Assembly: GCA_024699005.1 (NCBI GenBank)
Contig: JAILQN010000075.1
Location: 1 to 43,323, forward strand
From: Clostridia bacterium
Lineage (GTDB): Bacteria; Bacillota_A; Clostridia; Oscillospirales; Acutalibacteraceae
Reading direction: 5' to 3'
DNA length: 43,323 nucleotides
The translations under genes and the position numbers were made by a program. Below are positions 7,801 through 41,659 of this stretch, piece after piece. How positions within the stretch are numbered: the first letter of the stretch is position 1; each line of letters opens with the position of its first letter. The notes beneath the pieces were generated by a model, which worked only from the letters and a program-made list of their open reading frames with translations, searched no databases and had not been told where the DNA came from.

Positions 7801-8135
7801 TGACTCCTGACGCGCATACTTACGACGGCGGCGTAGTCACCACCCCGCCCACCTACTCCAGAACGGGTCTTATGACCTATACCTGCACGACATGCGGTCA
7901 CAGTTATACCGAGGAGATCGGCAGACTTGAGAGAGACGAAGACGATCCGTCTCACGGCGATACTGGTGACACCGGAAGCTCCGGCGGAGACTCCACGCAC
8001 CACAGCAGCGAGGGAAGATGCAGCATGTGCGACAAGTACGAAGCGATCCAGTCGAGCAACTCACCCGGCATTACGAAGCTGTTCTATTCGATAGTTCACT
8101 TCATCGTTCACCTGTTCGCGACATTCTCGTTCTGA
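1803..8135 (+). CDS. Giant secreted InlB-repeat protein with CxxC repeats and embedded calcium-type loops
   Basis: This 2110-residue protein has a signal peptide (about residues 1-35, basic start, hydrophobic core, SFAAD). Residues 36-500 form a beta-rich region I cannot name. About 500-590 is a helical FIVAR-like segment. About 590-1657 holds about a dozen InlB/Listeria-Bacteroides-type repeats, recognised by YTFxGW motifs and TYTAxY-type strand ends. A carbohydrate-binding-like beta module (about 818-953) interrupts them. From 1659 to about 2050 come nine repeats built as Cys, six to eight residues, Tyr-x-CxxC, then Gly-His. Two carry DANEDGIVNEDD and DTNEDGVETEAD, calcium-loop-like inserts. 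The end is CSMCDKYE followed by a hydrophobic tail without charge. No LPxTG is present. A GGAGG site lies 7 bases before ATG, and a terminator follows. I infer a cell-surface adhesin-like protein; the ligand is unknown. Confidence 0.85.
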   Translation: MSSFKHTFRRVMSVVLSCAMLCGFIGMFSLVSFAADVRTVAQSNSADLTFVVPDSIYLTPDGLSWKSSSSTPFQYYLNNTSAGVKSGTYSKTGYIYYKFTGQSGNATLSYSFLNSSFSSLSGGSVTLSNDTFTSGSSLQTVTINGGSSPSLSNTTTGCYIQWVLNYTDSADGVAKKAYAYTYVYKPYTVPFGGYCKGQDTDGTDHYGAQVSWVSGAHSLDTSGTYHDGNGFYSYYANGKGLAGYASADAEAYYGSTSATGVIKGVSVNASGDNNQQWYSGAARWYSLFADTASNDTIPHLDTNVDNVDYNSISDNSFGSTSSGNRTYNVKNFDFWYHEHDPSSCFLSNNLVCAPVGNITIDSSRFSNLNQIPGLSVTLLITSDKASKYSSWFVADASGITSWRSTDYWQGNKDDSQNLWNSRNYVIAGQGANDMSGGTKEAFIDEGVAYAGPWVRSLLGDSDTQGATYTYSVRTCHNSEEDSSGTNERVISHVVMDLKATYYNKTNLRTAVFNAIKKFPALGVTGISSGNITSKYFDANDNYKWTTFRNAFKAAVLALGKVDGTITNPDTLATNLNDALTGLHTKVTLNANGGDLNDAKVAGSSGAGYVQIGANQTVSVQPTGTPTRNGYTFNNWSLTANPATGTQGSTTVTVGYNNTLYACWTADQYTITCNAAGGTNAEDNPTSYDIEHSATLKAPTREGYTFKGWTGDNGSTPQTSVTIPEGSTGNKSYTANWEANKYTVVYAKGPDSATGTMNSFEATYDSSFTVAANGFANEGHTFTGWKGSNNQTYQPGDTPKNLTSESGGTFTMTAQWSANSYNVVYDNMLDMQAWQQSVGNGNQISITNKTDTGFTATSTGGTDGYTNWSPAMEVEAGKQYVVETNMTGSGYQVFADWLNSAGNHFEYSSTSDTATSTFTAPANAKYMRIRFDANNSGNSITCSNVRVAKVDDNALLNRSNVSVSPSNKIYTYGTDYQAELPTPTRSGYTFAGWYTDYSAETAVASGATVPAHTLHLWSKWNQETYNISYSMDGGTNHEDNPATYTVEDEIALKAPSKQGHTFTGWTGSNGTTPETSVTISKGSTGNKNFTAHWDINSYTIRFDCDNGSDIIENTVVYNNPVNKPANPTKDSTAQYSYTFTGWKSSVTGRVFGPNDTLPAANADVTYTAQYDATTRTYNVYWQNSDGTPLETDSNVPYGTTPVYNGADPSKAPDEQYQYTWTGWESGGQTYLKTDTLPAIQGETTFKATYSTTTRQYTITWYDWDRTTVLDTQTRDHGTGVTYAGINPPVREGNAEYSYAFDTFKDSNGNTYPKDNAITLNGDMTLYASYTQSINTYTVIWVGATGNLEVDNDVPYGTAPSFDLNGGANPTKEETEAATYEFIGWKSSKTEETYATVNLLPTVTGDVTFTAQFEAHIRQYNISWKNWNGDALGANLLNYGSVPAFSGETPTKTPTTTKEYVFAGWRSSGGTEYPAGTALPAVTGTETYTAYYTEQARLYSVTWIDEEGNVLEFDEKAYAYNAHPTYDRPDSSIPGKTANTEYTYTWGGWRDTVSGSSYTPSSLVAARVTKDTTYQVWYRAIKNQYEVTWIFKDSTGADISDATQVDYGANPTHADPDRYIEYEGETPYYYTFNGWNTFSPTDTLPPVTGPITYTATYVRADHVHQYDAGTIETEPTCEGTGTKIYRCTHEGCEMSYTETVQAAGHIWDNGTVDNAPTCIATGTMLYRCTRNGCTATKEEVIAKDMVNGHDWEKDEELSTEPSCEYTGTYYYKCNNNENHTKREIIPALGHNYTENTVLPTCVAQGYTEHVCSLCGYSYRDAYTDAPGHNYDANEDGIVNEDDAVKVREPDCINTGILRYECQVCHTTRDEFIPVLETHNYIGTVTREATCTLGEKTTYECSVCHKSYSEDSADALGHNYDTNEDGVETEADYDTIPATCTERGSVSKTCTRCGKTVRVENLPALRHDWGEGEVTQPATCAADGVITYTCSRCHITRTEAIPMTPDAHTYDGGVVTTPPTYSRTGLMTYTCTTCGHSYTEEIGRLERDEDDPSHGDTGDTGSSGGDSTHHSSEGRCSMCDKYEAIQSSNSPGITKLFYSIVHFIVHLFATFSF

Positions 8136-12089: not shown

Positions 12090-13553
12090 TTAAAGCTTCT
12101 CGACCGCACCGATAAAAAGCGGGATGTTCGCCTCGTTATCCCAGATCATATAGATGAACGGTCTGTCAAAAACGAGCTTCCGGACAGGCTCCGGAGGCAT
12201 GGATGCGGCCTTTGCGATTATAGCGGTCACAGCCGCCGCCCTGGTACCGTCCTTGGTCACGGAAATGTAAGTTTTATGCAGCACTTCGTCCACGAAAAGA
12301 TTGCCGTAATCGCTTGTGCCCATACGTGTAAGATCGGCGCTGCCGGCGCTGAAGACATCTGTCACGCCCATTGCGATGAGCTCGTCGACAAGAGAATTCG
12401 TGTAATCGAACTCGAATACCGGGAATGATACATCCAGTTCCTCCCTGACCGGCTCCCCGACAGCGGCCGAGATCGCACCGGCGTCAAGTCCTGCGACAAA
12501 CGCGGCAAAATCAGCGTTCGGATCCTCCGGCATTGCGGCGATAAAGGAAAATCGGGAGTCCGCGTAATTCTTTTTGAAGCCTGCTGCCTTTATATCCCCC
12601 GAATCGAAACCGACGAACATATATTCCCTGTCTCGCAGGAACTCGGCGTTCTGCACTGCGCCGTCACAGCCGGTGAAAGGCTGATTCTTTACCGTGTCGT
12701 CATACTTGACCGCCCACTCATTGTCAAATGCAAGCGCATTTATAAGAACAGCCATAATGTCCGGTGTGAGCCTGTCGATGATCGATGGGATCATACCGTC
12801 GGTCTTTTCTTTCACCCATCCGTTTATATCCCCGACCGTCCCGTTATCAAAGGGCTCGGTGCGAACATCCGAGAAGAAATACTCCCTGTTTTCCGCGATG
12901 AAATCCGGCTCGATCCTGACGCCTGTATTTCGCAGCCAGATCGAATCGGCAGCTTTAAGAGCGTCGATCCCCTCAAGGGATTTGAAATAATCGCGCATAT
13001 AGACCTTCAGGTCACCGTATTTTTTACCGAGCGCGCTCTCAAGCTGAGAAAGGGTGTTCCCGTCCGCGCCGGCAGTGAGCATACCGAGGGCGGCGTAAAC
13101 GGAAAGCGGTGAAACAAGGGTATTGTCACCTTTTTTGTACGCATTCCTGAACAGTTCCGCGCCGAAACCAACTATGCCCTGCGTATTGGTCGACGTTTCC
13201 GGCTCAAATTTGCTCTCCGGTTCCGGAACAGGCTCCGACGTCGTCTCCGAATCAGATTCGATCCGGTCCTCATAAATCTGTGTCGGTTCCAGCCTTGCTG
13301 ACATACGAAGCGCGATGCGCGCGTCGTCGGCAAGGATCATTTTATCTCCGTTGAGGTCCGCCGCGGCCGGATCGAACTTCCCGGAAACCGACAGTTTTGC
13401 AGAATAACGCAGTATCTCTCTCGCATCGCCCGCAAATACGTTCCCGTCGCCGTCCACGTCGCCCTGAAGCAGAGCCGATGAAGGCAGAAGCACACACGCC
13501 GTTGCGGCAAGCACAACAGCCGTTACCACGATAACAGCGATCAGTTTTTTCAT
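12090..13553 (-). CDS. Secreted serpin with an N-terminal dockerin module
   Basis: From the ATG at 13553 the protein has 487 residues. An N-terminal hydrophobic export segment (1-28) precedes a two-repeat dockerin-type module (31-88) with calcium loops DVDGDGNVFAGD and DLNGDKMILADD, each followed by an ARxxLR helix. An E/P/S/T-rich linker (89-124) leads to a full serpin domain (about 125-487). The reactive loop hinge GTRAAAVTAIIAKA (436-449) is alanine-rich, as in inhibitory serpins. Aligned to antitrypsin, P1-P1' would be Ala450-Ser451, suggesting an elastase- or subtilisin-like target. GGAGGT and a TTGACT/TATAAT promoter lie just upstream of this ATG. A longer reading frame to 13604 would begin upstream of that promoter, so I reject it. 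It is a likely extracellular protease inhibitor. Confidence 0.9.
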   Translation of the reverse strand: MKKLIAVIVVTAVVLAATACVLLPSSALLQGDVDGDGNVFAGDAREILRYSAKLSVSGKFDPAAADLNGDKMILADDARIALRMSARLEPTQIYEDRIESDSETTSEPVPEPESKFEPETSTNTQGIVGFGAELFRNAYKKGDNTLVSPLSVYAALGMLTAGADGNTLSQLESALGKKYGDLKVYMRDYFKSLEGIDALKAADSIWLRNTGVRIEPDFIAENREYFFSDVRTEPFDNGTVGDINGWVKEKTDGMIPSIIDRLTPDIMAVLINALAFDNEWAVKYDDTVKNQPFTGCDGAVQNAEFLRDREYMFVGFDSGDIKAAGFKKNYADSRFSFIAAMPEDPNADFAAFVAGLDAGAISAAVGEPVREELDVSFPVFEFDYTNSLVDELIAMGVTDVFSAGSADLTRMGTSDYGNLFVDEVLHKTYISVTKDGTRAAAVTAIIAKAASMPPEPVRKLVFDRPFIYMIWDNEANIPLFIGAVEKL

Positions 13554-13572
13554 TTTACTCACCTCCGAGGAT

Positions 13573-13601
13573 ATTATACGCCGTTTCAGAAACAAAGTCA
13601 A
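13573..13601 (-). promoter_or_regulatory. Sigma-A promoter of the serpin gene
   Basis: On the minus strand TTGACT (13601-13596), 17-bp spacer, TATAAT (13578-13573). Transcription should begin near 13566, right at the ribosome binding site, giving a very short leader. Confidence 0.8.
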
Positions 13602-13635
13602 CATTCTCGGCGGTATATGATGCGTTTTGTCACAT

Positions 13636-31068: not shown

Positions 31069-31124
31069 CGGGTGAGCCCGGTTATATCGTTGTGTTTTCA
31101 CAATGATATAGCCGGGCTTTTTTT
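31069..31124 (+). terminator. Strong terminator with overlapping alternative hairpin (attenuator) before the acetyltransferase gene
   Basis: A 20-bp stem (31075-31094 with 31099-31118, loop TTTT) is followed by seven T. A small hairpin CGGG-TGAG-CCCG (31069-31080) uses the first bases of the terminator arm, so the two are mutually exclusive. This would let the upstream fold control readthrough; it may also end mgtE transcription. Confidence 0.88.
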
Positions 31125-31155
31125 ATTATCACAATTCATAAACGGAGGATATAAA

Positions 31156-31704
31156 ATGGAAAAAGAAAAAAAGCAGATCCGTCTGGAACCGCTGACGAAT
31201 GAGGATCGGGAACAGTTCATCCTGGACAATCAGGAAGCTTTTCTTTTCGGCGCCACACAGGAATTCGGATGCCGGGACGAACATTTTGAAGAAGACGGCG
31301 AAATAATCTCCCGAAAAACGATCGAACAATCGATAGACGGGGGCGAAGCTTACCGTATCATGCGGGGAGATGAAAAAATCGGCGGCGCAGTCATCCGCAC
31401 AACCGCTGACCGCGGCGAACTTGAACTGATTTTCGTTTCTCCGACCGCTCACAGCAAAGGCATCGGTCAGACAGCATGGCAGCTGATAGAGAAACTACAT
31501 CCGGAAGTGATCGTATGGGAGACATACACCCCGTATTTTGAAAAGCGCAATATTCATTTCTACGTCAACCGCTGCGGATTCCATATCGTGGAATTTTTCA
31601 ACAGATTCCATCCGGATCCGAACGAAAAGGACTCCCATGATAATGATCCTGCGGATGATACAGACGGTATGTTCCGTTTTGAAAAAAGAATGAGAGATAT
31701 TTAA
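31156..31704 (+). CDS. GNAT family N-acetyltransferase
   Basis: A 182-residue GNAT-fold protein transferring an acyl group from acyl-CoA to an unknown amine. The fold is visible as IRLEPLTNEDREQF (N-terminal strand and helix), GGAVIRTTADRGELELIFVSP (strands 4 and 4-5), and the acetyl-CoA pyrophosphate loop VSPTAHSKGIGQTAWQLI (Q/R-x-x-G-x-G/A type, here SKGIGQ). YFEKRNIHFYVNRCGFHIV is the typical C-terminal strand pair. The tail is His/Asp rich (HPDPNEKDSHDNDPADD). The start at 31156 has GGAGG 7 bases upstream; a longer frame to 31072 would place the start inside the terminator. Leader-controlled expression suggests a metabolite or drug cue. Confidence 0.8.
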   Translation: MEKEKKQIRLEPLTNEDREQFILDNQEAFLFGATQEFGCRDEHFEEDGEIISRKTIEQSIDGGEAYRIMRGDEKIGGAVIRTTADRGELELIFVSPTAHSKGIGQTAWQLIEKLHPEVIVWETYTPYFEKRNIHFYVNRCGFHIVEFFNRFHPDPNEKDSHDNDPADDTDGMFRFEKRMRDI

Positions 31705-31755
31705 GAATTGTTAAGGTTTCAGCATGATGTTTTTTAAGAATTACTCTGGTAAAAT
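31700..31755 (+). promoter_or_regulatory. Putative autoregulated promoter with response-regulator boxes
   Basis: TTTAAGAATT occurs at 31700-31709 and 31734-31743, and TTAAG repeats at 31701 and 31711, one helical turn apart. A TAAAAT -10 lies at 31750-31755 with no -35 match, as expected for an activator-dependent promoter. Location just before the response regulator suggests self-control. Confidence 0.45.
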
Positions 31756-31795
31756 GACGTGTATAGAGAGTCCGGAAAGCGAGGTCACAAAAGCT

Positions 31796-32497
31796 ATGCA
31801 GCCGATCGGTATACTGTTGATCGAGGATGACGCGGATATCCGCGACAGTGTCCGTATTCTTCTTGAAAGCGAAGGTTATTCCGTAAAGGAAACGGCAAAC
31901 GGAGCGGACGGGCTGCGATATCTGGATGATACGGTCTCGCTTGTGATCCTTGATGTGATGCTGCCCGGGATCTCCGGTATCAAGACCTGCGAGGAGATAC
32001 GAAAACGCTCGTACATTCCTGTTCTGTTTCTGACGGCAAAGTCCTCCGAATCAGACAAGCTGATAGGTCTGACGGTAGGCGGAGATGATTATCTTATAAA
32101 ACCTTTTTCCTATTCGGAGCTGTTGGGCAGAGTAAGGGCGCTGCTGCGCCGATATCATGTCTACAGCGGGAACACCGTACAGCCTGAACCAACGGATCCG
32201 GTGATACGGATAGGCGGGATAGAGTTGAGACAGGATCGCAACGAGGTCTCGGCAAACGGGAAAGAGATCATGCTGACAGATCTGGAATACCGGATAATTC
32301 TGCTGTTGATGCAGCACCCGCGTGAAACGTTTTCCGCTCAGGTCATTTACGAGACCGTATGGCAGGAACCGTATTATTATGCATCCAACGGAACCGTCAT
32401 GGTGCATATCCGCAAGCTTCGTATAAAACTTGAAAAAAATCCCGACACGCCGGAACACATAAAAACCATTTGGGGGAAGGGGTATCGTTTTGAATAA
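31796..32497 (+). CDS. OmpR/PhoB-family response regulator controlling the dlt-like operon
   Basis: A 233-residue DNA-binding response regulator from the ATG at 31796. The receiver domain has acidic residues 10-12 (EDD), phospho-acceptor Asp53 in LVILDVMLPG, Thr80 and Lys102 (LIKPFSYSELL). A winged-helix effector (about 135-233) ends in VHIRKLRIKLEKN and IKTIWGKGYRFE, the OmpR type. An in-frame ATG at 31724 adds 24 residues with no receiver homology and lies upstream of the likely -10, so I prefer 31796 (GAGG at 31781-31784). It overlaps the kinase gene by 8 bases and heads the surface-modification operon. Confidence 0.92.
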   Translation: MQPIGILLIEDDADIRDSVRILLESEGYSVKETANGADGLRYLDDTVSLVILDVMLPGISGIKTCEEIRKRSYIPVLFLTAKSSESDKLIGLTVGGDDYLIKPFSYSELLGRVRALLRRYHVYSGNTVQPEPTDPVIRIGGIELRQDRNEVSANGKEIMLTDLEYRIILLLMQHPRETFSAQVIYETVWQEPYYYASNGTVMVHIRKLRIKLEKNPDTPEHIKTIWGKGYRFE

Positions 32498-33866
32498 AAG
32501 GAGATGGGGCCTAAAGGCGCAGGCGCTGACGGCGCTCGCAATTTCATTCGCCGCCGCGATTCTGTGCTTTCTCGCAACATGGTCATGCTCCTCAGTCATT
32601 CTGGACCGGGTATTCGAGAAGACGGAGTATAACGAAGTAAGATCGGAGGCATATCTTGACTCCTTCGCGTCATTTGTTTCGGAGAACAGGATTTCTGCTG
32701 CAGACGTTTCCAAGATCAGGGCATGGCGAAAAAGCAACAAACCCGCCGTAACTCTTCTTTATATCACAAGAGACGGAACCGTGCTGTACGATTCCATGCG
32801 TTCCGAGCTGCGCACGGGGCTCTCCGATCCGGAGGGAACGCGTGCCGGGGAGGAATACGCCGGGGAGGATTACGGTAATAACGACTGGTTCATAAAAAAG
32901 GAAATTACATTTGCGGACGGAAACGCCTCAGTTTCCGTATACGGTTATTTCGATCAGCGGATCTCAGATGCCGTCCTGATCGCGAATATCGTTCTGTCAG
33001 CGGTACTGCTGTGTCTTACCTTTGTCGGATTCGTCCGCAGAAAGATCGTTTACATCATAAAACTGGAAGAAGAGATCAAAATACTGGAAACCGGCGGACT
33101 AGACTATCCGATCACTGTCCGCGGACATGACGAACTGACGTCGCTGGCGGAAGATCTGAACGGAATGCGTCTGGCGCTGCTGGAAAACATGCAGGTGGAA
33201 GCGGCTGCAGTCAAAGCCAATTATGATCTTGTGGCGGCAGTGTCCCATGATCTTCGTACCCCGCTGACATCTCTCTCGCTGTATCTTGATCTGATCCTCA
33301 CGGAAAAGTACCGGGATAAAGAGAAAATCACTGAAACGCTTGAAAAAGCCCGTGGCAAGGTCTCACAAATTAAAATGATGACGGATCAGCTGTTTGAGCG
33401 TTTCATTTTCGATAAAGATACCGAAAGTCCGCCACCTCCTCCCCTGCCTGCAAAAGCACTTTTTGAAGATGCCCTATCAGGCGCGGTCTGTTATCTGAGA
33501 GAAAACGGTTTTGAGGTCGAGTCAAGTCTGTTTTGGCCGGATAGGGAAACGGTTGTCGACGGCGAATCCGTAAACCGTATTATAGATAACCTTTGCTCCA
33601 ACGTACTGAAATATGCGGATCCGTCACAACCCGTACTGCTAAGCGTATATGAAAACAAAAACAGCTTTCAGATCCGCTTGACCAACAGAATGCGCATCCT
33701 GACAGAAAAAACCGAAAGCACAGGTATCGGACTCAGGAACGTCCGGTTTCTGATGAACAGGCTGGGCGGAGACTGTGAAATAAAGCAATCCGACGACGCG
33801 TACACGATCTGTCTGACGTTCCCGCTGACAGATGATCCCGCACCGGAAGGAGAAAACGACGCATAA
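32490..33866 (+). CDS. Sensor histidine kinase of the dlt-like operon
   Basis: A 458-residue membrane kinase beginning at TTG, with AAGGGG 8 bases upstream and the response regulator overlapping. Two membrane helices (about 12-33 and 160-182) bracket an extracytoplasmic sensor of about 125 residues that is rich in D/E (DPEGTRAGEEYAGEDYG), which could bind cations or cationic peptides. A HAMP linker (about 185-235) leads to the phospho-acceptor VSHDLRTPLTSLSLYLD (His253). The ATPase domain has an N-box RIIDNLCSNVLKY and G2-like STGIGLRNV; a classical DxGxG G1 box is not obvious, as in several Firmicute kinases. The stop TAA shares a base with the ligase ATG, tying sensing to the modification enzymes. 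Confidence 0.9.
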   Translation: MNKRRWGLKAQALTALAISFAAAILCFLATWSCSSVILDRVFEKTEYNEVRSEAYLDSFASFVSENRISAADVSKIRAWRKSNKPAVTLLYITRDGTVLYDSMRSELRTGLSDPEGTRAGEEYAGEDYGNNDWFIKKEITFADGNASVSVYGYFDQRISDAVLIANIVLSAVLLCLTFVGFVRRKIVYIIKLEEEIKILETGGLDYPITVRGHDELTSLAEDLNGMRLALLENMQVEAAAVKANYDLVAAVSHDLRTPLTSLSLYLDLILTEKYRDKEKITETLEKARGKVSQIKMMTDQLFERFIFDKDTESPPPPPLPAKALFEDALSGAVCYLRENGFEVESSLFWPDRETVVDGESVNRIIDNLCSNVLKYADPSQPVLLSVYENKNSFQIRLTNRMRILTEKTESTGIGLRNVRFLMNRLGGDCEIKQSDDAYTICLTFPLTDDPAPEGENDA

Positions 33867-35383
33867 TGATCAACGTAATGGAATATGCGGAGAATACCGC
33901 GGCGCGTTTCCCTGAAAAACACGCCGCTATCGAAGGAGACCGCAGGATCACATACGCGGAACTGTTGCTTTCATCAAAGGCGGTCGGTACTGCTCTTGCC
34001 GACATGGTTTTCCGCTGCGCACCGACGGTTGTTTTCATGGAAAAAGGAATCGACGCGCTTATCGCTTTTTTCGGGATCGTTTATGCCGGAGGATGTTATT
34101 CCCTGTTGACACCGGAGCTGCCGGAACAGCGGCTGAAACTCATCCGATCCGCTCTGCAGGCTGAAATTGTGATCACCGTCGAATCATTGGAACAAAAAGC
34201 GCGGAAGCTGTTCCCGGATGCAGAAATACGAACCGTCGGGTCTCTGCGCGCAGGGCGAATAGACGAGAGTCGCCTGAGAAACATACGGAAAAGAATGATC
34301 GATACAGATCCGCTGTACATAAACTTCACTTCCGGCACAAGCGGCACGCCCAAAGGGATAACAGTGTCCCACCGCAGCGTGATCGATTTTATTTCGTGCT
34401 TTACAGATCTGTTTCATATCACGAAAGATGACCGGATCGCAAATCAGGCGCCGTTTGACTTTGACGTTTCCGTCAAGGATATCTATTCCTCGGTCGCCGT
34501 GGGAGCGACGCTCGTTATAATTCCGGGAGAATACTTTTCCGCCCCGGTCAGACTGCTGGATTATCTGTGCGATAACAACGTGACGACGATGATCTGGGCG
34601 GTATCCGCCCTGTGCCTGATTACAGCTTTCCACGGGCTGGACTACCGTACGCCCGAGACCGTTAATAAGGTACTGTTCAGCGGCGAGGTAATGCCCGGAA
34701 AAACCCTGCGCGACTGGCGGAGCCACCTGCCGGACGCCACCTTCGTCAATCTGTACGGCCCCACCGAGATAACCTGCAACTGCACTTTCCACATTCTGGA
34801 CAAAAACTGCGATTACCCGGATGGTATACCCATCGGAACACCGTTTCCGAATGAAGACGTTTTTCTTCTGGACGATGAAGATCGTCTCATCAACGTACCG
34901 GACCGGGTCGGCAGGATCATCGTGCGTGGAACCGCGTTAGCGCTCGGATATTACGGAGCCCCGGAAAGGACGGCAGAATCATTTATTCAAAATCCGCTGC
35001 ATCGGATGTATCCTGAAACGGTTTACGATACAGGCGATCTCGGAGCGTATAATGATAACGGAGAATTGATGTACCGCGGCAGAAGAGACAATCAGATAAA
35101 ATACATGGGACATCGGGTCGAACTGCAGGAGATAGAACACGCGATGGAAAAAATAGACGGCGTGGACCGCTGCATATGTATTTTCGATGCGGGGAAAAAA
35201 CGACTGAAGGGCCTTTACACAGGTTCAATCGAGAAGGAAGATCTGTACAAACTTCTTCATCAGACGCTGCCGCTGTTTATGGTGCCCGGGGATTTGAGAA
35301 AACTGGAATGCATCCCCCTGACAAAAAACGGAAAGGCGGACCGCAGGAAGGCGGCAGAATTGGCGGAAAGGAGCGTTTTATGA
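33866..35383 (+). CDS. DltA-like amino acid adenylating enzyme (carrier-protein ligase)
   Basis: A 505-residue stand-alone adenylation enzyme of DltA/NRPS A-domain type: ATP activates an amino acid, which is then moved to a carrier protein. Motifs in order are FTSGTSGTPKG (A3, 154-164), QAPFDFDVSVKDIY (A4), NLYGPTE (A5, 295-301), YDTGDLG (A7), GRRDNQIKYMGHRVEL (A8) and LTKNGKADRR (A10, catalytic Lys490). Asp200 is the alpha-amino-binding residue of A domains. By hand alignment the specificity residues read D-V-K-W-L-S-L-C-N-K. DltA typically has D-L-M at the first three, so D-alanine is doubtful; the Lys at code position 3 could bind an acidic side chain. Neighbours are the decarboxylase and carrier protein. 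Confidence 0.85.
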   Translation: MINVMEYAENTAARFPEKHAAIEGDRRITYAELLLSSKAVGTALADMVFRCAPTVVFMEKGIDALIAFFGIVYAGGCYSLLTPELPEQRLKLIRSALQAEIVITVESLEQKARKLFPDAEIRTVGSLRAGRIDESRLRNIRKRMIDTDPLYINFTSGTSGTPKGITVSHRSVIDFISCFTDLFHITKDDRIANQAPFDFDVSVKDIYSSVAVGATLVIIPGEYFSAPVRLLDYLCDNNVTTMIWAVSALCLITAFHGLDYRTPETVNKVLFSGEVMPGKTLRDWRSHLPDATFVNLYGPTEITCNCTFHILDKNCDYPDGIPIGTPFPNEDVFLLDDEDRLINVPDRVGRIIVRGTALALGYYGAPERTAESFIQNPLHRMYPETVYDTGDLGAYNDNGELMYRGRRDNQIKYMGHRVELQEIEHAMEKIDGVDRCICIFDAGKKRLKGLYTGSIEKEDLYKLLHQTLPLFMVPGDLRKLECIPLTKNGKADRRKAAELAERSVL

Positions 35384-36564
35384 CGCTTTATGAAAAAAGA
35401 CTGATCAACGAAAACCATACGGCGTTTTACGTTTTCGACGCATCGGAACTGAAACAACGTATCGAATGGCTTCAGACACATCTGCCGGAAGAAACGTCGT
35501 TGTGTTTTGCAATGAAAGCAAATCCATTCCTTGTGAAAGAACTTTCGGTACAAGTGGAACGCTTTGAGCTCTGTTCCCCCGGTGAAGCCCGCATTTGCAA
35601 CAGCCTCGGCATCCCGGCAAAGAAAATGGTGATCTCCGGCGTTTACAAAACTCCTTCCGTAATCGACAATATGACGGCGGATTCAGCTTTTGACGCAATA
35701 TTCACAGTGGAATCCGCGCTGCAGTATCAGATTCTGCGGGATTCGGCAAAGAAATACGGACGTCGTTTAAAGGTTTTGCTGCGGCTGACCAATCAAAGTC
35801 AGTTCGGTATGGACACGCCGGAGATCGAACGGATCATCGCGAACCGAAAAGACTGTCCGGAATTGCGCATCACAGGACTTCAGTACTTTTCAGGCACACA
35901 GAAGACGTCTGTCAAAAAACTTCGCCGGGAATTGGAAAACCTGGACCGGTTCATGACGGAGCTGAGCAGGAAATACGGTTATGAAGCAGATGAGCTGGAA
36001 TACGGCCCCGGGTTTCCGGTTGCTTATTTTGAAGACGACAAACACGACGAAGATGTGTATTTTCGTGAATTCTGCGATATTATCGCGACCATGAAGAACA
36101 AGCCGCGCCTGACCCTGGAACTGGGCAGAAGCATTGCGGCGTCATGCGGCCGATACTATACGCATATCGTAGATATCAAACGAAACGCCGGGCAGAATTA
36201 CCTGATCACAGACGGAGGCATGCATCAGATCGTTTATTACGGGCAGCATATGGCCATGAAGCAGCCGATACTGCATATCGTCGGCAAACACGATGTCAAC
36301 CGGGATATCAGATGGAATATCTGCGGTGCGCTGTGCACGATGAACGACATACTGGCGAAGCAGGTCTGTCTGCCGGACGTCGCCGTGGGCGATACGGTTT
36401 GTTTTGAAAATGCCGGCGCTTACTGTATGGCGGAGGGAATCTCTCTGTTCCTGAGCCGCGAGCTGCCCGCGGTCTGGCTCGCGCCGGAGGATGACGAGCC
36501 CTTTATGATGAGGGAACCGCACCCCACCGATGTTTTAAACACACCGCACTATGAAAGGCTGTGA
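35380..36564 (+). CDS. LysA-fold (type III) PLP-dependent decarboxylase in the dlt-like operon
   Basis: A 394-residue enzyme of the ornithine/lysine/diaminopimelate decarboxylase fold. Starting at the ATGA overlap with the ligase, it shows the PLP lysine in FAMKANPF (Lys46), GYGP-like YGPGFPVAYF (208-217), the phosphate-binding ELGRSIAASCGRYY (247-260), GALCTMNDILAKQVCLP (316-332, with the active-site Cys319) and VCFENAGAYCM (340-350). The GLQYFSGTQ stretch lacks the His normally stacking on PLP in LysA (usual GxHxHIGS). The GALCTxxDxLAxxVxLP and ENAGAY style recalls decarboxylases working with carrier proteins (butirosin BtrK) and those of exosortase A loci. I infer decarboxylation of a free or carrier-bound amino acid. 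Confidence 0.85.
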   Translation: MTLYEKRLINENHTAFYVFDASELKQRIEWLQTHLPEETSLCFAMKANPFLVKELSVQVERFELCSPGEARICNSLGIPAKKMVISGVYKTPSVIDNMTADSAFDAIFTVESALQYQILRDSAKKYGRRLKVLLRLTNQSQFGMDTPEIERIIANRKDCPELRITGLQYFSGTQKTSVKKLRRELENLDRFMTELSRKYGYEADELEYGPGFPVAYFEDDKHDEDVYFREFCDIIATMKNKPRLTLELGRSIAASCGRYYTHIVDIKRNAGQNYLITDGGMHQIVYYGQHMAMKQPILHIVGKHDVNRDIRWNICGALCTMNDILAKQVCLPDVAVGDTVCFENAGAYCMAEGISLFLSRELPAVWLAPEDDEPFMMREPHPTDVLNTPHYERL

Positions 36565-36569
36565 TACGA

Positions 36570-36800
36570 ATGAAAGAATTACTTGAGATCCTGAATGATA
36601 TCCGTCCCGATATCGACTATGATACCTGTGAAACGTTGATCGACGAGCATCTGCTTGACTCTCTCTCCATCATCGCACTTATTGCGGAACTGGAAGACAC
36701 TTTTGACATAACGATCCCCGCCGTCGAAATCATCCCGGATAATTTTAATTCCGAAAAAAAAATTAACGCATTGATCACACGGCTGCAGGAGGACGAATAA
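36570..36800 (+). CDS. Acyl/aminoacyl carrier protein (DltC-like)
   Basis: A 76-residue helical carrier protein. The phosphopantetheine attachment site is Ser31 in EHLLDSLSIIALIAELED, the DSL motif opening helix 2. The N-terminal helix is MKELLEILNDIRPDI and helix 3 contains ITIPAVEIIPDNFNS. AAGG lies 11 bases before the ATG at 36570; a GTG at 36561 is an alternative start. It sits right after the decarboxylase and 1 bp before the MBOAT gene, the position DltC takes next to DltB. It probably receives the activated amino acid from the ligase and presents it at the membrane to the MBOAT protein. Confidence 0.92.
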   Translation: MKELLEILNDIRPDIDYDTCETLIDEHLLDSLSIIALIAELEDTFDITIPAVEIIPDNFNSEKKINALITRLQEDE

Positions 36801-36801
36801 C

Positions 36802-38436
36802 GTGAACTTTGCTTTGCTGTCAGCGTTCGGAACAAAGCTCACCTCCTGTTTCTCTGCGGAATACCTTTTCGTCTTTCTGCCTGTTTTTCTGATCGTTTAC
36901 GGAATCGTGCCCGGTAAATGCAGAAGAGGCGTTCTGATTGCCGCAAGTTGCATATTTTACTGTCTCGTCAGCGGTAAGCTGATCGTTTACCTGCTGCTGA
37001 CTGTGTTCTCCGTGCACTGGTTCGGGATCTGGCTCGACCGGCTGCAGACGCAGATGAAGGAACACACGGCGTCACTTCCGAAGGAAGATCGGAAAACTGT
37101 CAGAAAAAGCTATGCGGCAAAACGGCGCGCTGTTGTCACGCTTGCAGTTGTGCTGCAGTTGGGCCTTCTGCTGACGTTAAAATATACCGGTTTCTTTTTA
37201 GGCAATCTGAACACCTTTCTGACGGCGCTTCAAATCCCGATACAGTGTAATATCCCGACTTTTCTTGTCCCCCTGGGAATTTCATTCTTCTCACTGCAGG
37301 CCGTCTCTTACCTGTCTGATGTCTATCACTGCTCGATACCGGCGGACGACAATCTTGCAAGGCTGCTTCTTTTCATCGGCTTTTTCCCTCAGATTACGGA
37401 AGGTCCGATCTGTCGTTACCGGGAGACTGCGGACGCTCTGTGGAATGCCGGACCGATCCGGTACGGGAACCTGACGCTCGGGCTGACCCGCATCGCATGG
37501 GGCATGATGAAAAAGATTGTGGCGGCAGACCGGCTGGATCCGCTTATAAGAAATGTCTTTACCGATTTTACGGAATATGACGGCGGCGTGATCGCTCTGG
37601 CAGCGGTACTTTATACGGTTCAGCTGTATATGGATTTCTCCGGAGCAATGGACGCTTGTCTGGGCACTGCGCAGATCATAGGAGTCGTATTGCCGGAGAA
37701 TTTCAGGCGTCCGTTTTTCTCTAAGACGATCTCTGAATTCTGGACGCGCTGGCACATCACCCTCGGCGCATTTTTCCGGGATTACGTGTTTTACCCCGTG
37801 TCAGTTGCCGGCCCTATGAAAAAGCTGACCATCCTTGCCCGCAAAAAGCTCGGCAACCGCTACGGACCGCTGATCACCGGAGGCACAGCACTATTCTGCG
37901 TATGGCTTTGCAACGGCTTGTGGCACGGCGTCGGCTGGAGCTTTATATTTTTCGGGCTGTATCATTTTGCGCTGATATACGGCGGGAACCTGCTTTCTCC
38001 GCTGACCGCCCGGATCGGCGGATGGCTGCGTATAGATCCGGAACGCTTCATTTTCCGCTGGCTTCGCATAATACGAACATCGCTTCTGGTGGTCACGGGA
38101 GAGCTGTTTTTCCGCGCGCACGGACTTCGGGCGGGGATGCAGATGTTCCGGCAGATGGTCACCCGGTTTTCATTCGGGTCCCTTATCCCCGAAGCTGAAC
38201 TGCTTTCAAAACTCGGTGTGGACGTACAGGACCTGCTGATCGTCGGGGTTACGGTCCTTCTCGTTTTTGTAATCGGCTTACTGCGTGAAAAAGGCGTTGA
38301 TATACGCGGCGAACTGTTCCGGAAGCCGACGGCAATCCGCTGGACCGTTTTCTATGCGCTGATCATGTATATTGTGATCTTCGGAGCGTACGGCGAGGGA
38401 TACGCGCCGGTCGATCCGTTATATGCACAGTATTAA
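36802..38436 (+). CDS. MBOAT family O-acyltransferase (DltB/AlgI-like)
   Basis: A 544-residue membrane protein with about 12 hydrophobic segments. MBOAT motifs are FFPQITEGPICRYRE (194-208), the conserved YMDFSGAMDACLGTAQIIG (276-294), FWTRWHITLGAFFRDYVFYP (313-332, His318) and LWHGVGWSFIFFGLYH (373-388) with the catalytic His375. Such proteins move an acyl or aminoacyl group from a carrier or lipid across the membrane to an outside hydroxyl. At 544 residues it is longer than DltB (about 400) and nearer AlgI/PatA-type lengths. It starts at GTG with GGAGGACG upstream. With ligase, carrier and SGNH protein it forms a Dlt-like transfer machine. Confidence 0.93.
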   Translation: MNFALLSAFGTKLTSCFSAEYLFVFLPVFLIVYGIVPGKCRRGVLIAASCIFYCLVSGKLIVYLLLTVFSVHWFGIWLDRLQTQMKEHTASLPKEDRKTVRKSYAAKRRAVVTLAVVLQLGLLLTLKYTGFFLGNLNTFLTALQIPIQCNIPTFLVPLGISFFSLQAVSYLSDVYHCSIPADDNLARLLLFIGFFPQITEGPICRYRETADALWNAGPIRYGNLTLGLTRIAWGMMKKIVAADRLDPLIRNVFTDFTEYDGGVIALAAVLYTVQLYMDFSGAMDACLGTAQIIGVVLPENFRRPFFSKTISEFWTRWHITLGAFFRDYVFYPVSVAGPMKKLTILARKKLGNRYGPLITGGTALFCVWLCNGLWHGVGWSFIFFGLYHFALIYGGNLLSPLTARIGGWLRIDPERFIFRWLRIIRTSLLVVTGELFFRAHGLRAGMQMFRQMVTRFSFGSLIPEAELLSKLGVDVQDLLIVGVTVLLVFVIGLLREKGVDIRGELFRKPTAIRWTVFYALIMYIVIFGAYGEGYAPVDPLYAQY

Positions 38437-38445
38437 GGGGGCATC

Positions 38446-39327
38446 ATGAAAAAAACAAAACGGCGCTGCGCACTTCCCGCTGCTTTTTTGTCAGGGTTGC
38501 TCATTATACTGCTTCTGACCTCTGCGTTATTCGTACCGAAAAACAACGCGAAGGAAAACGGGATGATCGATTACAAGGCAAACGGCATCCTCGGCGAACC
38601 GGAACAGTCCGTAGACGTATTGTTTCTCGGAGACAGCGAGTGTTACTGCGCTTTTATTCCGACGTATCTTCTGGAGCGATACGGGATCACCTCTTATAAC
38701 TGCGGAACTGCAGCCCAGAATTTGTATTATACGAGAGAGTTTCTGAAAAAAGCATTTGAGAAACAAACGCCGAAAGTCGTCGTGCTGGAGACCAACGCGA
38801 TCTTCCGGGAGTTTTCCTTCGTCGCGACTATCGTCAACAAATTCGATCAGTGGCTGCCTGTTTTTCGATATCACGACCGATGGAAACAGTTCGGCGCAAA
38901 AGACCTGATTTTCTCCGGCGCTGTCTACACCCACAGGGAAGACGCAAAAGGCTATCGCCGACACAACAAATCTTCACCTGCTTCTCCCGGCGATTATATG
39001 GCGGACACAGATGAGACAAAATACGTATCATTTCAGAACCGCACTTTTGTTAAGGACTTTCGGGATTACTGCGAAAATCGAGGAGCAAAACTGATCCTCG
39101 TCAGTACTCCCAGCACTGTAAACTGGAATATGAAACGACATAACGGCATTGCGATTCTGGCAGAGAATCTGCAGCTTGATTATTTTGACCTGAACCTGAA
39201 GACTTCTCCGGTACAGATCGACTGGTCAAAAGACACATGGGACAAGGGCGATCATATGAACTGGTCCGGCGCGTGCAAGGTGACGGATTGGCTCGGATCG
39301 TATCTTAAATCATCCGGACTCGCATGA
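38446..39327 (+). CDS. SGNH-fold membrane-anchored protein (DltD/AlgX-like)
   Basis: A 293-residue protein with an N-terminal membrane anchor (about 10-30) and an outward SGNH-type domain. The nucleophile segment is VLFLGDSECYCAF with Ser64 after GDS; the block II-like NCGTAAQNLYYT follows, and the C-terminal DKGDHMNWSGACKVTDWL holds the probable catalytic Asp/His (Asp266 or Asp269, His270). Spacing of the final Asp-His pair differs slightly from the common DxxH. In dlt, DltD is the partner of DltB that completes transfer to teichoic acid; AlgX does so for alginate. I infer the final transfer or hydrolysis step here. It overlaps the next gene by four bases. Confidence 0.85.
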   Translation: MKKTKRRCALPAAFLSGLLIILLLTSALFVPKNNAKENGMIDYKANGILGEPEQSVDVLFLGDSECYCAFIPTYLLERYGITSYNCGTAAQNLYYTREFLKKAFEKQTPKVVVLETNAIFREFSFVATIVNKFDQWLPVFRYHDRWKQFGAKDLIFSGAVYTHREDAKGYRRHNKSSPASPGDYMADTDETKYVSFQNRTFVKDFRDYCENRGAKLILVSTPSTVNWNMKRHNGIAILAENLQLDYFDLNLKTSPVQIDWSKDTWDKGDHMNWSGACKVTDWLGSYLKSSGLA

Positions 39328-39860
39328 AGCCGTGCGAACGGTTCGCCCCGAAATCATTCCCGGGACCAAAACAACACAATATGAAATTATTTCCTCACTT
39401 TTATTATTCCGTGAGAACCTCAAAACCTGCGGGACAAGTCCTGATGACCGTGCGCGACGCAGCTATCTCCGTTCTGGACCGCGATTACAATTGTACGGAG
39501 CTTGACAGAAAAAGCAAAAGTGTCCTGCTTTATCCTGAAAGCAAACGAGCGTTTCTGCACAACCCGTTTTTGCCGATCATTCTTGTCTCAGTACACGAAA
39601 ACAAAAATGGAACGACTCTCAGTATAGAGACAAGACTGCGATCAAGAGTCCGGAACTTCCTTATCGCTTTTATCGTAATCGAACTGCTTGCGGAAACAGC
39701 TCTTCTGACCCGCTGCGCAGTTCTGCACTCTTTTTCGTGGCTGTATGTTTGTGTTCCTCCTGCGGTATCCGTCGTGGCATACCTTGTATTGCTTACAGGA
39801 CTTACCATTCTTTCAAAAAGCGTTTTCCGTCAATTCGAAGACGAGTTCAATGACTCTTGA
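39324..39860 (+). CDS. Small two-helix membrane protein of the dlt-like operon, unknown
   Basis: A 178-residue protein not recognised. The ATG overlaps the SGNH stop (ATGA); a second candidate ATG at 39381 gives 159 residues (MKLFPHFYYSVRT). The N-terminal 100 residues look like a small beta-rich cytoplasmic domain (VRDAAISVLDRDYN, TLSIETRLRSR), then two hydrophobic helices (about 111-131 and 138-163) and a short acidic tail. It could be an accessory subunit of the acyltransferase complex, by position alone. It is the last gene of the overlapped series. Confidence 0.6.
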   Translation: MKPCERFAPKSFPGPKQHNMKLFPHFYYSVRTSKPAGQVLMTVRDAAISVLDRDYNCTELDRKSKSVLLYPESKRAFLHNPFLPIILVSVHENKNGTTLSIETRLRSRVRNFLIAFIVIELLAETALLTRCAVLHSFSWLYVCVPPAVSVVAYLVLLTGLTILSKSVFRQFEDEFNDS

Positions 39861-39934
39861 TTAAAAATCATTTAACATCATATCAGAGTATTATACTGAA
39901 TCACTGTCATAAAATCCAAAGGAGGTTTGTTCCT

Positions 39935-40456
39935 ATGCCGGATGACAAAAAACACGTATCATTGTCCGATCAGATATCCGGACAGTCCATGCCGCCTGAC
40001 GTCATATCGACGCCCGAGCTGCACAGGAGTCCGGGAAAGAAATTTCTGATAAAGGCGGCGGCGTTAACAGTTCTCGTCTTCTGTATGGTTTTCGTCCTGA
40101 TCCACCTGGATGCACACAAAGGGGGAAACGTTTCGCAGGTGGAAACGTCCGACGTCGATTCGCAGCTCTTTTCTTCCGAAGACATAGACAGTGCGATGAA
40201 AACGATAATAAAGGAATTTGAGGAAAACTGGAAAGGCTGCAAGCTGACACGTTTGTGGTATGCCGGTGATGAAACGTCGATACAGGAAAGCGAAGAAAGA
40301 GACGTGCAGACTATCGTTCTGCTCTCCGATTTTGAAACTTCAAAGCCGCCGGCTGAAAGCGCGCTGAATGAAAACCACACTTATACAAACTGGAACTGGA
40401 TCCTGATCCGTTCGTCGGACGGGAAATGGGTCCATATCGACCACGGTTACGGCTGA
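39935..40456 (+). CDS. Small anchored extracytoplasmic protein, conserved-looking, unknown function
   Basis: A 173-residue protein from the ATG at 39935, which has AAAGGAGG 10 bases upstream; a longer frame to 39857 lacks such a site. One membrane helix (about 37-57) is followed by an outer domain: SSEDIDSAMKTIIKEFEENW, GCKLTRLWYAGDE, TIVLLSDFETS, and a final TNWNWILIRSSDGKWVHIDHGYG. This pattern (amphipathic helix, LWYxxD, VLLSDF, W-x-W-I-L-x-R, DxGY) recalls small exported proteins common in gut Clostridia, but I cannot name a function. It lies 74 bp after the dlt-like operon and may be co-transcribed. Confidence 0.65.
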   Translation: MPDDKKHVSLSDQISGQSMPPDVISTPELHRSPGKKFLIKAAALTVLVFCMVFVLIHLDAHKGGNVSQVETSDVDSQLFSSEDIDSAMKTIIKEFEENWKGCKLTRLWYAGDETSIQESEERDVQTIVLLSDFETSKPPAESALNENHTYTNWNWILIRSSDGKWVHIDHGYG

Positions 40457-40512
40457 TCAAACAAGAAAGCACCGCACATCTTACTGCGCCCTTTTATCGA
40501 TTAAACAAACGA

Positions 40513-40799
40513 GGGGCTGTAAAAGAAGTCAACAAGCAAGTCACCCGATTCTGTTGATGTTTGGGTGACTTCATATTTTGATTTCTTGTATTAAGGTGAA
40601 GTTTTTTTATAAAAAAGTGAAGTTGTTCACAGGTTCACAGTGAAGTTTTTCACCGTGGGGTGAAAAGTGAAGTAAAGTTTGCCTTACTTCACCGTCAGGT
40701 GAAACTTCACTCATGCAATGAACTTCACTTTCAAAGAAAACTTCACTTGCCACCGGCAAACTTAACCGGGGCTGTAAAAAACGCGTTTTTTACAGCCCC
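40513..40799. repeat. 287-bp nested palindromic element: four GTGAAGT then four ACTTCAC inside GGGGCTGTAAAA ends
   Basis: This fills most of the 378-bp gap between convergent genes. The ends are inverted (GGGGCTGTAAAA 40513-40524; TTTTACAGCCCC 40788-40799). Inside are AAGTCACCC/GGGTGACTT (40538-40546 with 40563-40571); GTGAAGT at 40596, 40617, 40640 and 40667; ACTTCAC at 40686, 40704, 40722 and 40740; the central perfect hairpin GTGAAGTAA/TTACTTCAC (40667-40692); and AAGTTTGCC/GGCAAACTT. No ORF is present. Possibilities are a small non-autonomous repeat, a structured RNA or a compound terminator. Confidence 0.85.
40768..40799. terminator. GGGGCTG-family hairpin at the right end of the palindromic element
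   Basis: GGGGCTGTAAAAAA (40768-40781) pairs perfectly with TTTTTTACAGCCCC (40786-40799). It lies 3' to both converging genes. It matches the terminator after jag, but no long T-run follows it here. Confidence 0.6.
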
Positions 40800-40834
40800 T
40801 TATGTCTGGTTTTGAATCAGGAGAATGATACAGT

Positions 40835-41659
40835 TCATAAACTGCGCCTGAAACCGGATGAGAACCGTTCTATCCGGCTGCCGAGTCTGTCTTTCAGAAA
40901 AGCGAAACCATGATCGCCGGTACAATGTCCGGTAATGATACGTTCTACCGGCGTGCGCCGGATATCTTCGCAGAGCGCATCCAGCTCTTCGTTCGTCAGC
41001 TTATAGAGGTGCAGACCGCCCACATAAGTCACGACGTCATCGCGCCCGAGCATCTGCCGGATATCGACAAGGATATTGATCATTCCGGAGTGAGAGCAGC
41101 TGTTGAAAACGGTCAGTCCGCGCCGGGTTTCGATAACCAGGCTTTGTTCGTGGGCGAAATCATCCGGAGAGAGTTTTCCGTTATCTGCGGTATAAAGGTC
41201 GTTGCGCAGCGCTATGGCGGAATAATCCGCCCTGCGGTGCGGGATCAGCCATACTCCGTCCGCTATTTCACAGACGCCGCTGACATATCGGATACGCGCC
41301 TCATACTTTTTCAGAACGCCGCTTTTTATGCCTATATAGCGCAGCTCGCCCTCTTTTATTCCGAAGCAGTTTTCTCCCGTCCCATCCCTAACCAGGAAAG
41401 GCGCGGTCCGGTTAAGGGCGAAGAACGTATCCAGTCCGTCCGCGTGATCGTAGTGAGCGTGGGACAGCACGCCGACGTCGATATCGCCGGGATCTATCCC
41501 CAGGATTTCTGCATTCCGCGCGAACATACCTCCGGCTCCGGTATCCAGAAGGATCCTCGTGCCGTCAGCCGAGATCATAATGCTCAGACCCCATTCAGCG
41601 GCAAACGGTTCTTCCGCGGAATTATCCGTCAGAACCGTCATTTCAAGATCACGTATCAT
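40835..41659 (-). CDS. Metallo-beta-lactamase-fold hydrolase
   Basis: A 274-residue MBL-fold protein of the group close to archaeal-type dihydropterin-related MBL proteins. It has the dinuclear metal motif SHAHYDHADG (66-75), an N-terminal strand pair RDLEMTVLTDNSAEEPF, ILLDTGAGG, NSCSHSGMIN (His ligand), VGGLHLYKLTNEEL and VERIITGHCTGDHGF (final His ligand). It is cytoplasmic and its substrate cannot be read from sequence. The next upstream gene, 18 bp away, is a NifX-like protein; such pairs are common in anaerobes and suggest a metal- or iron-sulfur-related role. Confidence 0.88.
   Translation of the reverse strand: MIRDLEMTVLTDNSAEEPFAAEWGLSIMISADGTRILLDTGAGGMFARNAEILGIDPGDIDVGVLSHAHYDHADGLDTFFALNRTAPFLVRDGTGENCFGIKEGELRYIGIKSGVLKKYEARIRYVSGVCEIADGVWLIPHRRADYSAIALRNDLYTADNGKLSPDDFAHEQSLVIETRRGLTVFNSCSHSGMINILVDIRQMLGRDDVVTYVGGLHLYKLTNEELDALCEDIRRTPVERIITGHCTGDHGFAFLKDRLGSRIERFSSGFRRSL

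Follow-up and report, generated by a model that had tools for sequence, protein, structure and literature searches.

The window analysed here, a 43,323-nt stretch of contig JAILQN010000075.1 from a Clostridia bacterium, carries on its plus strand nine open reading frames (ORFs; 31796-40456) that form one compact unit, with a core made up of a ligase, a decarboxylase, an acyl carrier protein, an MBOAT acyltransferase and an SGNH protein. Read off the ORF coordinates, six of the joins within the unit are overlaps (8, 1, 4, 4, 4 and 4 bases) and two are gaps (1 and 9 bp); together with the family profiles they confirm the tightly joined Dlt-like operon with a decarboxylase that an earlier, sequence-only reading of this DNA had described, and the ninth ORF (39857-40456) carries the unit past the end of that reading at 39860. 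Locus-level facts given below refer to the window, and genome-level counts to the genomes of its relatives. The features are the following.

31796-32497, plus strand: response regulator of the OmpR/PhoB type, VanR-like (PF00072, PF00486)
32490-33866, plus strand: membrane sensor histidine kinase with a TTG start (HisKA, HAMP, HATPase); 8-base overlap with the response regulator gene
33866-35383, plus strand: stand-alone amino-acid adenylation ligase of 505 amino acids, pocket code DVKSLSLCNK (AMP-binding); 1-base overlap with the kinase gene
34463-34477, plus strand: ligase residues D200 (amine-binding position 235) to K204 (position 239), from the sequence; D and K are both present in 78/78 rows with letters, of 81
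35380-36564, plus strand: pyridoxal phosphate (PLP) decarboxylase of fold-type III, BtrK-like, 394 amino acids (Orn_DAP_Arg_deC); 4-base overlap with the ligase gene
36561-36800, plus strand: acyl carrier protein of 79 amino acids (PF00550, PP-binding); 4-base overlap with the decarboxylase gene
36660-36662, plus strand: codon of the carrier phosphopantetheine serine, Ser34, present in 76/76 aligned rows
36802-38436, plus strand: MBOAT acyltransferase of 544 amino acids (MBOAT family), a DltB-like core with two extra C-terminal hydrophobic helices; 1-bp gap after the carrier gene
38416-38433, plus strand: hexapeptide PLYAQY of the acyl-shuttle type at the MBOAT C-terminus, with Tyr541, present in 73/73 rows with letters, of 74
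38446-39327, plus strand: membrane-anchored SGNH acyltransferase/esterase (SGNH fold) with Ser64 and His270; 9-bp gap after the MBOAT gene
39324-39860, plus strand: small membrane protein, an orphan (no Pfam or NCBIfam family); 4-base overlap with the SGNH gene
39857-40456, plus strand: orphan of 199 amino acids with one hydrophobic segment (by eye), no family, last ORF of the unit; 4-base overlap with the gene of the small membrane protein
40768-40799, no strand assigned: bidirectional terminator-like hairpin with a 14-pair stem at the end of the unit, ahead of a convergent gene (consensus match only)

Conservation of the gene set

A scan with an alignment of the decarboxylase through one genome per species (84,980 species) gave 263 stretches and 241 relatives, the best 80 of which make up loci L001-L080. 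Judged by their titles, most come from metagenome-assembled genomes (MAGs) of Clostridia, and the named ones include Ruminococcus bromii, Agathobaculum and an Acetobacterium wieringae MAG. The order ligase-decarboxylase-carrier-MBOAT-SGNH was found, on one strand, in 71 of these 80 loci, and in the other nine the last gene found lies at most 465 bases from a contig end, so that the five-gene arrangement cannot be put down to chance; the conservation check that the earlier reading had proposed came out in its favour. The ligase lies directly 5' of the decarboxylase in all 80 loci, and a carrier match was found beside the decarboxylase in 75, the exceptions (L030, L040, L044, L068 and L080) being near contig ends. 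MBOAT and SGNH genes are present in 73 and 71 loci, respectively, and the remaining loci stop at contig ends.

The genes that flank this core are less constant. The two-component system that had been regarded as the operon's own is indeed present in the window unit, but a response regulator was found 5' of the cassette and on the same strand in only 21 of the 57 loci whose flank reaches 2.6 kb or more, and the system is therefore an optional neighbour. In the window, the response regulator scores 218 bits against its best NCBIfam model, VanR, under the cut-off of 350, and its frame is open to an earlier ATG at 31724; promoter-like sites were uninformative (11 seen, 9.7 expected). The small membrane protein, which had been counted as part of the operon, does lie in the transcription unit but has no convincing relative in loci L001-L240 (best E-value 1.5), and neither has the last ORF (best E-value 1.2). 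Both fall outside the conserved set for this reason, and both were rejected as parts of the system.

The ligase and its pairing with the decarboxylase

The ligase scores 307 bits against the amino-acid adenylation model TIGR01733 (cut-off 317.4) and 256.2 bits against DltA TIGR01734, whose threshold of 559.85 is not reached. The positions of its ten-residue pocket code were set by motif alignment and are given in what we take to be GrsA numbering. The code DVKSLSLCNK is identical in 76 of 81 rows (the 80 loci and the window), two others have V at position 322 and three are incomplete; it is unlike the code that we assume for DltA. In a genome profile search of 15 relatives, no DltA passed the curated cut-off, and the strongest DltA-type match of every genome was the ligase of the cassette itself; among 14 control genomes, two had a DltA over the cut-off. 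This near-invariant code and the lack of a DltA, together with the separate LysA homologues described below, uphold the earlier proposal of a substrate class beyond canonical D-alanylation. Lys at position 239, or Arg as in a second code type (IAR), would suit a free carboxylate on the substrate. Microcystin adenylation domains that activate side-chain carboxyls reportedly have Arg239, and a surfactin glutamate domain Lys239; we found no paper with these code strings and take them only as a lead.

The relation between code and decarboxylase was followed in two samples of 295 genomes each, not selected for the decarboxylase, one from the order of R. bromii (G002) and one from the order of G010 (a Lachnospiraceae MAG, locus L046). 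The decarboxylase was detected in 13 genomes of the first (E-value 1e-60) and 20 of the second, ligase relatives in 45 (E-value 1e-75) and 68, the latter with 73 ligase places, and all 118 ligase places (E-value 1e-75) were read for code and neighbours. The DVKSxSxCNK type accounts for 29 rows from 28 genomes (15 with exactly the window code, 13 that vary at position 299 or 322, and one partial); a decarboxylase adjoins the ligase in 25 of the 29, lies elsewhere in the genome in two (G473, G458) and was not found in two (G274, G116). The IAR[SA][CL]SQASK type, which is without the amine-binding Asp and has Arg at 239, has an adjoining decarboxylase in five of five cases. Among ligases with other codes the figure is 0/84, 81 of which come from genomes that lack the decarboxylase and three from genomes that have it elsewhere; 36 of these 84 rows come from 4.5-kb loci in which about 1.5 kb of flank is visible, and there the absence of the decarboxylase is that of genome-wide searches at an E-value of 1e-60.

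Around the pair, gene orders include ligase-decarboxylase-carrier-MBOAT-SGNH, decarboxylase-carrier-ligase-MBOAT-SGNH and MBOAT-SGNH-ligase-decarboxylase-carrier, with the pairing kept throughout; because the order differs between groups, the pairing is not only a matter of inheritance as one block. Two genomes of the 33 with a decarboxylase (G386 and G487, loci L169 and L170) have only distant ligase-like genes near it, of 136 and 99 bits. A ligase tree of 74 rows (the window, every DVKS and IAR row that has 400 residues or more and ten rows per other class, two shorter rows being left out) resolved the DSKS, SM and IAR codes as one group each, while the DVKS code needs two changes; DVKS, IAR and two other-code rows lie together on one side with weak support (77/62).

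The decarboxylase

The decarboxylase has both Orn_DAP_Arg_deC domains and a weak match to PF01168 (39.8 bits). It reaches the cut-off neither of TIGR03099 (178 bits, cut-off 478.45) nor of LysA TIGR01048 (145 bits, cut-off 297.9), and its nearest solved structures are the diaminopimelate decarboxylase 2p3e (E-value 4.7e-27) and then BtrK, 2j66 (E-value 5.8e-25). In the alignment it shares with LysA Cys319, the cysteine given as conserved in decarboxylases of fold-type III (PMC7857480). Here and below, statements from papers cited by PMC number draw on extracts of the sources.

A tree of 32 rows, made up of BtrK, 20 chosen operon-type enzymes and 11 LysA sequences (ten from relatives and 2p3e), separated BtrK and all 20 operon-type enzymes from all 11 LysA with a support of 100/99, although for BtrK the possibility of long-branch attraction calls for caution. 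In LysA of Thermotoga maritima, Arg249 and Arg285 hold the distal carboxylate of diaminopimelate and Glu315 its distal amine (PMC8277567). When these sites were mapped by alignment, Arg249 was found to be retained in the operon-type enzymes, whereas the Arg285 site is Y in 20/20 of them and R in 11/11 LysA, and the Glu315 site T or S in 20/20 and E in 11/11. With replacements at two of the three distal-substrate residues, the enzyme is unlikely to use diaminopimelate. By tree and alignment, then, the enzyme is BtrK-like rather than LysA-like, as the sequence-only reading had supposed, and BtrK decarboxylates a carrier-bound glutamyl group (PMC7857480). That reading had also considered that the gene might be the only lysA of its genome; a separate LysA homologue of 270-503 bits was found in 13 of 15 relatives, in seven of them over the cut-off, and in neither G012 nor G014. 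Public names of related proteins, 'alanine racemase' or 'diaminopimelate decarboxylase family' (P0064, P0066, P0087, P0013), mask the operon type.

The membrane acyltransferases

The likeness of the MBOAT to DltB that the Dlt-like reading implied holds for its core, which scores 143.8 bits against DltB TIGR04091 without reaching the cut-off of 375, but not for its C-terminus. There it carries an acyl-shuttle-type tyrosine motif, which is why it is not a plain DltB. The acyl-shuttle motif described for C-termini is FXYXXF (PMC12148441), and 56 of the 57 MBOATs from loci L111-L130 and L161-L230 fit a looser pattern (Y, two residues and F or Y near the end). By its predicted architecture the protein is a DltB-like core with a fused PatA/DltX-type acyl-shuttle tyrosine motif. 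The operon has no separate DltX microprotein, the gaps in the nine-gene unit being only 1-9 bp, and of the small ORFs listed in 31700-31800, 36400-38500 and 40400-40840, those translated showed by eye no FXYXXF-like ending. The SGNH protein has the SGNH fold, had no Pfam or NCBIfam match at an E-value of 1e-3, and DltD was not among the matches listed. Catalytic residues are present in the carrier, the MBOAT and the SGNH protein, and the carrier gene within the operon argues for a carrier, rather than an acyl-CoA, as the likely donor to the MBOAT.

Related cassettes and neighbouring genes

Other ligase codes come with other gene sets. Ten SM-code ligases (L097, L098, L100, L102, L105, L186, L189, L209, L223 and L224) have Ser at the amine-binding position and probably load a hydroxy acid or another non-amino acid; seven are found in ligase-carrier-MBOAT sets and none beside a decarboxylase. 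With the DSKS code, a gene of 260-268 amino acids that looks GNAT-like (by eye, from one sequence) stands between ligase and carrier, at L144:2990-3778 and in the same place in 16 of the 17 DSKS rows (all that were looked at, L195 being outside them), which is where the window class has its decarboxylase. At L163 (1834-6243, minus strand) an IAR ligase, a carrier and a decarboxylase are followed by what by eye are two AT3-like membrane acyltransferases and a UDP-GlcNAc 2-epimerase-like gene, so that the donor module might serve other transferases too. In eight of 20 loci, DAKS- or DGKS-code cassettes have in their neighbourhood a gene for a secreted protein that by eye, from one sequence, combines Ig-like repeats with a transglutaminase-like end (L113:11022-12746).

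In the window itself, a GNAT-family gene (31072-31704, plus strand) lies just 5' of the response regulator and near the cassette in four of the 81 loci, the window included. Farther away are a gene at 12090-13604 (minus strand) with serpin and dockerin domains (PF00079, PF00404), which suggest a cellulosome-type protease inhibitor, and one at 1803-8135 (plus strand) for a protein of 2110 amino acids with Listeria-Bacteroides and InlB-type repeats (PF09479, PF18998), likely a surface protein.

Discussion

Our analysis makes it moderately probable that the unit acylates the envelope as a carrier-fed cassette of the Dlt/Pat type, with decarboxylation taking place on the carrier. At the level of sequence this is supported by the gene set, its order and conservation, the active-site residues, the BtrK-like decarboxylase, the tie between code and decarboxylase and the fused shuttle-type motif; from these we infer the substrate, the order of the chemistry and an ester on an envelope polymer as acceptor. 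The ligase would adenylate the side-chain carboxyl of an acidic amino acid, L-aspartate being the best guess and glutamate the next, and load the amino acid onto the carrier. Loading through the alpha-carboxyl would leave the PLP enzyme no free alpha-carboxylate, unless the side chain carried an amino acid group, and Asp at 235 and Lys at 239 would fit a beta-activated aspartate, with glutamate second. The BtrK-like enzyme could then strip the alpha-carboxylate to give beta-alanyl-S-carrier (or its gamma-aminobutyrate, GABA, equivalent), the MBOAT could pass the acyl group across the membrane to its own Tyr541, and the SGNH protein could accept it on Ser64 and esterify an envelope polymer. There are precedents for the carrier chemistry: with VinN-VinL-VinO decarboxylation occurs only once the thioester has formed (PMC11284099), and with AfcQ-AfcK-AfcP L-Asp loaded by its side-chain carboxyl becomes beta-Ala on the carrier (PMC12186527). 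The product would be a positively charged, achiral substituent replacing D-alanine, and the cell surface would probably be decorated with another positively charged group, e.g., beta-alanine; a cationic function, and a part for the two-component system in control, are likewise proposed.

Several observations weigh against this reading. Lys239 is shared by 62 of the 84 other-code ligases, and none of these adjoins a decarboxylase; on that count it was rejected as a marker of decarboxylation. Asn305 occupies the code position taken as VinN 331, with no obvious counterpart of Arg331, in a mapping that is uncertain in that VinN was not aligned directly. G274 and G116 have a DVKS-type ligase, carrier and MBOAT in which the BtrK-like gene was not found (only weak matches of 48 and 43 bits), so a strict dependence of the DVKS-type ligase on the decarboxylase gene fails in two of 28 genomes; the decarboxylase may be dispensable there, or the assemblies may be incomplete. 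The rows are related, and the pairing counts are not phylogenetically independent. The window hexapeptide PLYAQY differs from FXYXXF at its first (P) and last (Y) residue. Finally, the relatives share no acceptor pathway: PF04464 is present in 8/15 and PF00884 in 12/15, neither of them in G007 or G011, and these acceptor genes do not single out teichoic acid as the acceptor.

The alternative that survives best, although unlikely, is that the decarboxylase works first on a free amino acid and the ligase loads a finished omega-amino acid such as beta-alanine or GABA, which would lead to the same surface product. Gene content does not fix the order of the two steps, and in incednine biosynthesis the PLP enzyme IdnL3 converts beta-glutamate to 3-aminobutyrate, which is then taken by the ligase IdnL1 (PMC11284099). 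However, a basic residue at ligase position 239 would be odd with a substrate that has no second carboxylate; BtrK, the second-nearest solved structure, works on a carrier-bound group (PMC7857480); and, in the extracts of the respective papers, a decarboxylated amino acid is not taken by VinN or AfcQ (PMC11284099, PMC12186527). Decarboxylation on the carrier remains our preferred order. It is improbable that the cassette makes a secreted small molecule or peptide rather than a wall substituent, although it is in antibiotic pathways that ligase-carrier-decarboxylase trios have been studied best, the decarboxylases of L169 and L170 lie near only distant ligase-like genes and the IAR sets L163, L164 and L166 have no MBOAT beside them. 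Against it, window-type loci have their MBOAT (73/80) and SGNH (71/80) genes except at contig ends, and by eye, with no profile search run on them, no condensation or polyketide gene was recognised among the 25 most recurrent neighbour clusters.

We give slightly less credit to a LysA-type enzyme supplying lysine, whether for biosynthesis or as a lysyl-carrier made from carrier-bound diaminopimelate for a polymer carrying lysine. The homology to LysA seen with TIGR01048 speaks for it, but the separate LysA homologues in 13 of 15 genomes and the two distal contacts replaced in all 20 operon-type enzymes led us to reject a LysA function, and LysA of T. maritima with Thr at the Glu315 site loses most of its diaminopimelate activity (PMC8277567). 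Least credible of all is an alanine racemase feeding ordinary D-alanylation, to which the public names of P0064, P0066 and P0087, the weak PF01168 match and the DltA-like ligase could point, and which was rejected on the two decarboxylase domains, the decarboxylase cysteine, and the score and code of a ligase far below the DltA cut-off in a group without a DltA over it in any of 15 relatives.

The proposed cassette would combine parts of several known systems. Like Dlt (DltA, DltC, DltB, DltX and DltD), which attaches D-alanine to teichoic acids, the window encodes ligase, carrier, MBOAT and SGNH protein together; it differs in a ligase whose code and scores lie outside DltA, in the extra decarboxylase, in an MBOAT that carries its own shuttle-type tyrosine, on two extra helices, in place of the DltX microprotein, and in an SGNH protein that the profiles run did not recognise as DltD, and D-Ala is not expected. 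PatA-PatB and related MBOAT-SGNH pairs share the fused C-terminal FXYXXF-type motif and the separate SGNH protein, but PatA uses acetyl-CoA where the window system has a ligase and carrier, and MBOAT/SGNH pathways other than Dlt are described, in the extract available, as being without a similar carrier protein (PMC12148441). AlmE-AlmF-AlmG of Vibrio cholerae also joins an adenylating enzyme, a carrier and a transferase in surface aminoacylation under two-component control, but places glycine on lipid A, with no decarboxylase mentioned in the extract (PMC12930378).

The free-standing ligase, carrier and PLP decarboxylase are common to VinN-VinL-VinO (vicenistatin), FlvN (fluvirucin) and AfcQ-AfcK-AfcP (AFC-BC11), where carrier-bound decarboxylation gives a beta-amino acyl group. 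Those trios feed polyketide or lipopeptide assembly, whereas the window trio is followed by an MBOAT-SGNH pair. In butirosin biosynthesis (BtrI-BtrJ-BtrK), which contains one of the nearest solved relatives of the decarboxylase, a carrier-bound glutamyl group becomes GABA. The butirosin product goes to an aminoglycoside, unlike the one proposed here. BtrJ is presumably an ATP-grasp ligase, and we know of no membrane transferases in that system. Exosortase A loci also pair a ligase with a decarboxylase, of the same two families (TIGR03098 and TIGR03099), against which the window proteins score 184 and 178 bits with cut-offs of 592 and 478. Among the papers listed by searches of the open-licence part of PubMed Central, which leave subscription papers outside, none was seen to describe a Dlt-like operon that includes a decarboxylase, or wall polymers esterified with beta-alanine or GABA.

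More tentatively, and a little short of an even chance, Clostridia could have a family of MBOAT cassettes that are fed by a carrier, have the shuttle fused and differ in an exchangeable donor module (a decarboxylase, a non-amino-acid ligase of code SMxxLxLDxK or a GNAT-like protein), the window member putting beta-alanine or GABA on an envelope polymer. If so, D-alanine would be only one of several charged and uncharged groups on the surface polymers of gut Clostridia, and the choice of group could be read from ten ligase residues and an accessory gene. Annotations such as 'alanine racemase' and 'DltA-like' would be corrected, and surface chemistry could be predicted for Ruminococcus bromii and many uncultured gut species. 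Such a family would also link the carrier chemistry of antibiotic pathways (VinNLO, BtrIJK) to modification of the envelope and, possibly, to resistance to cationic peptides of the host.

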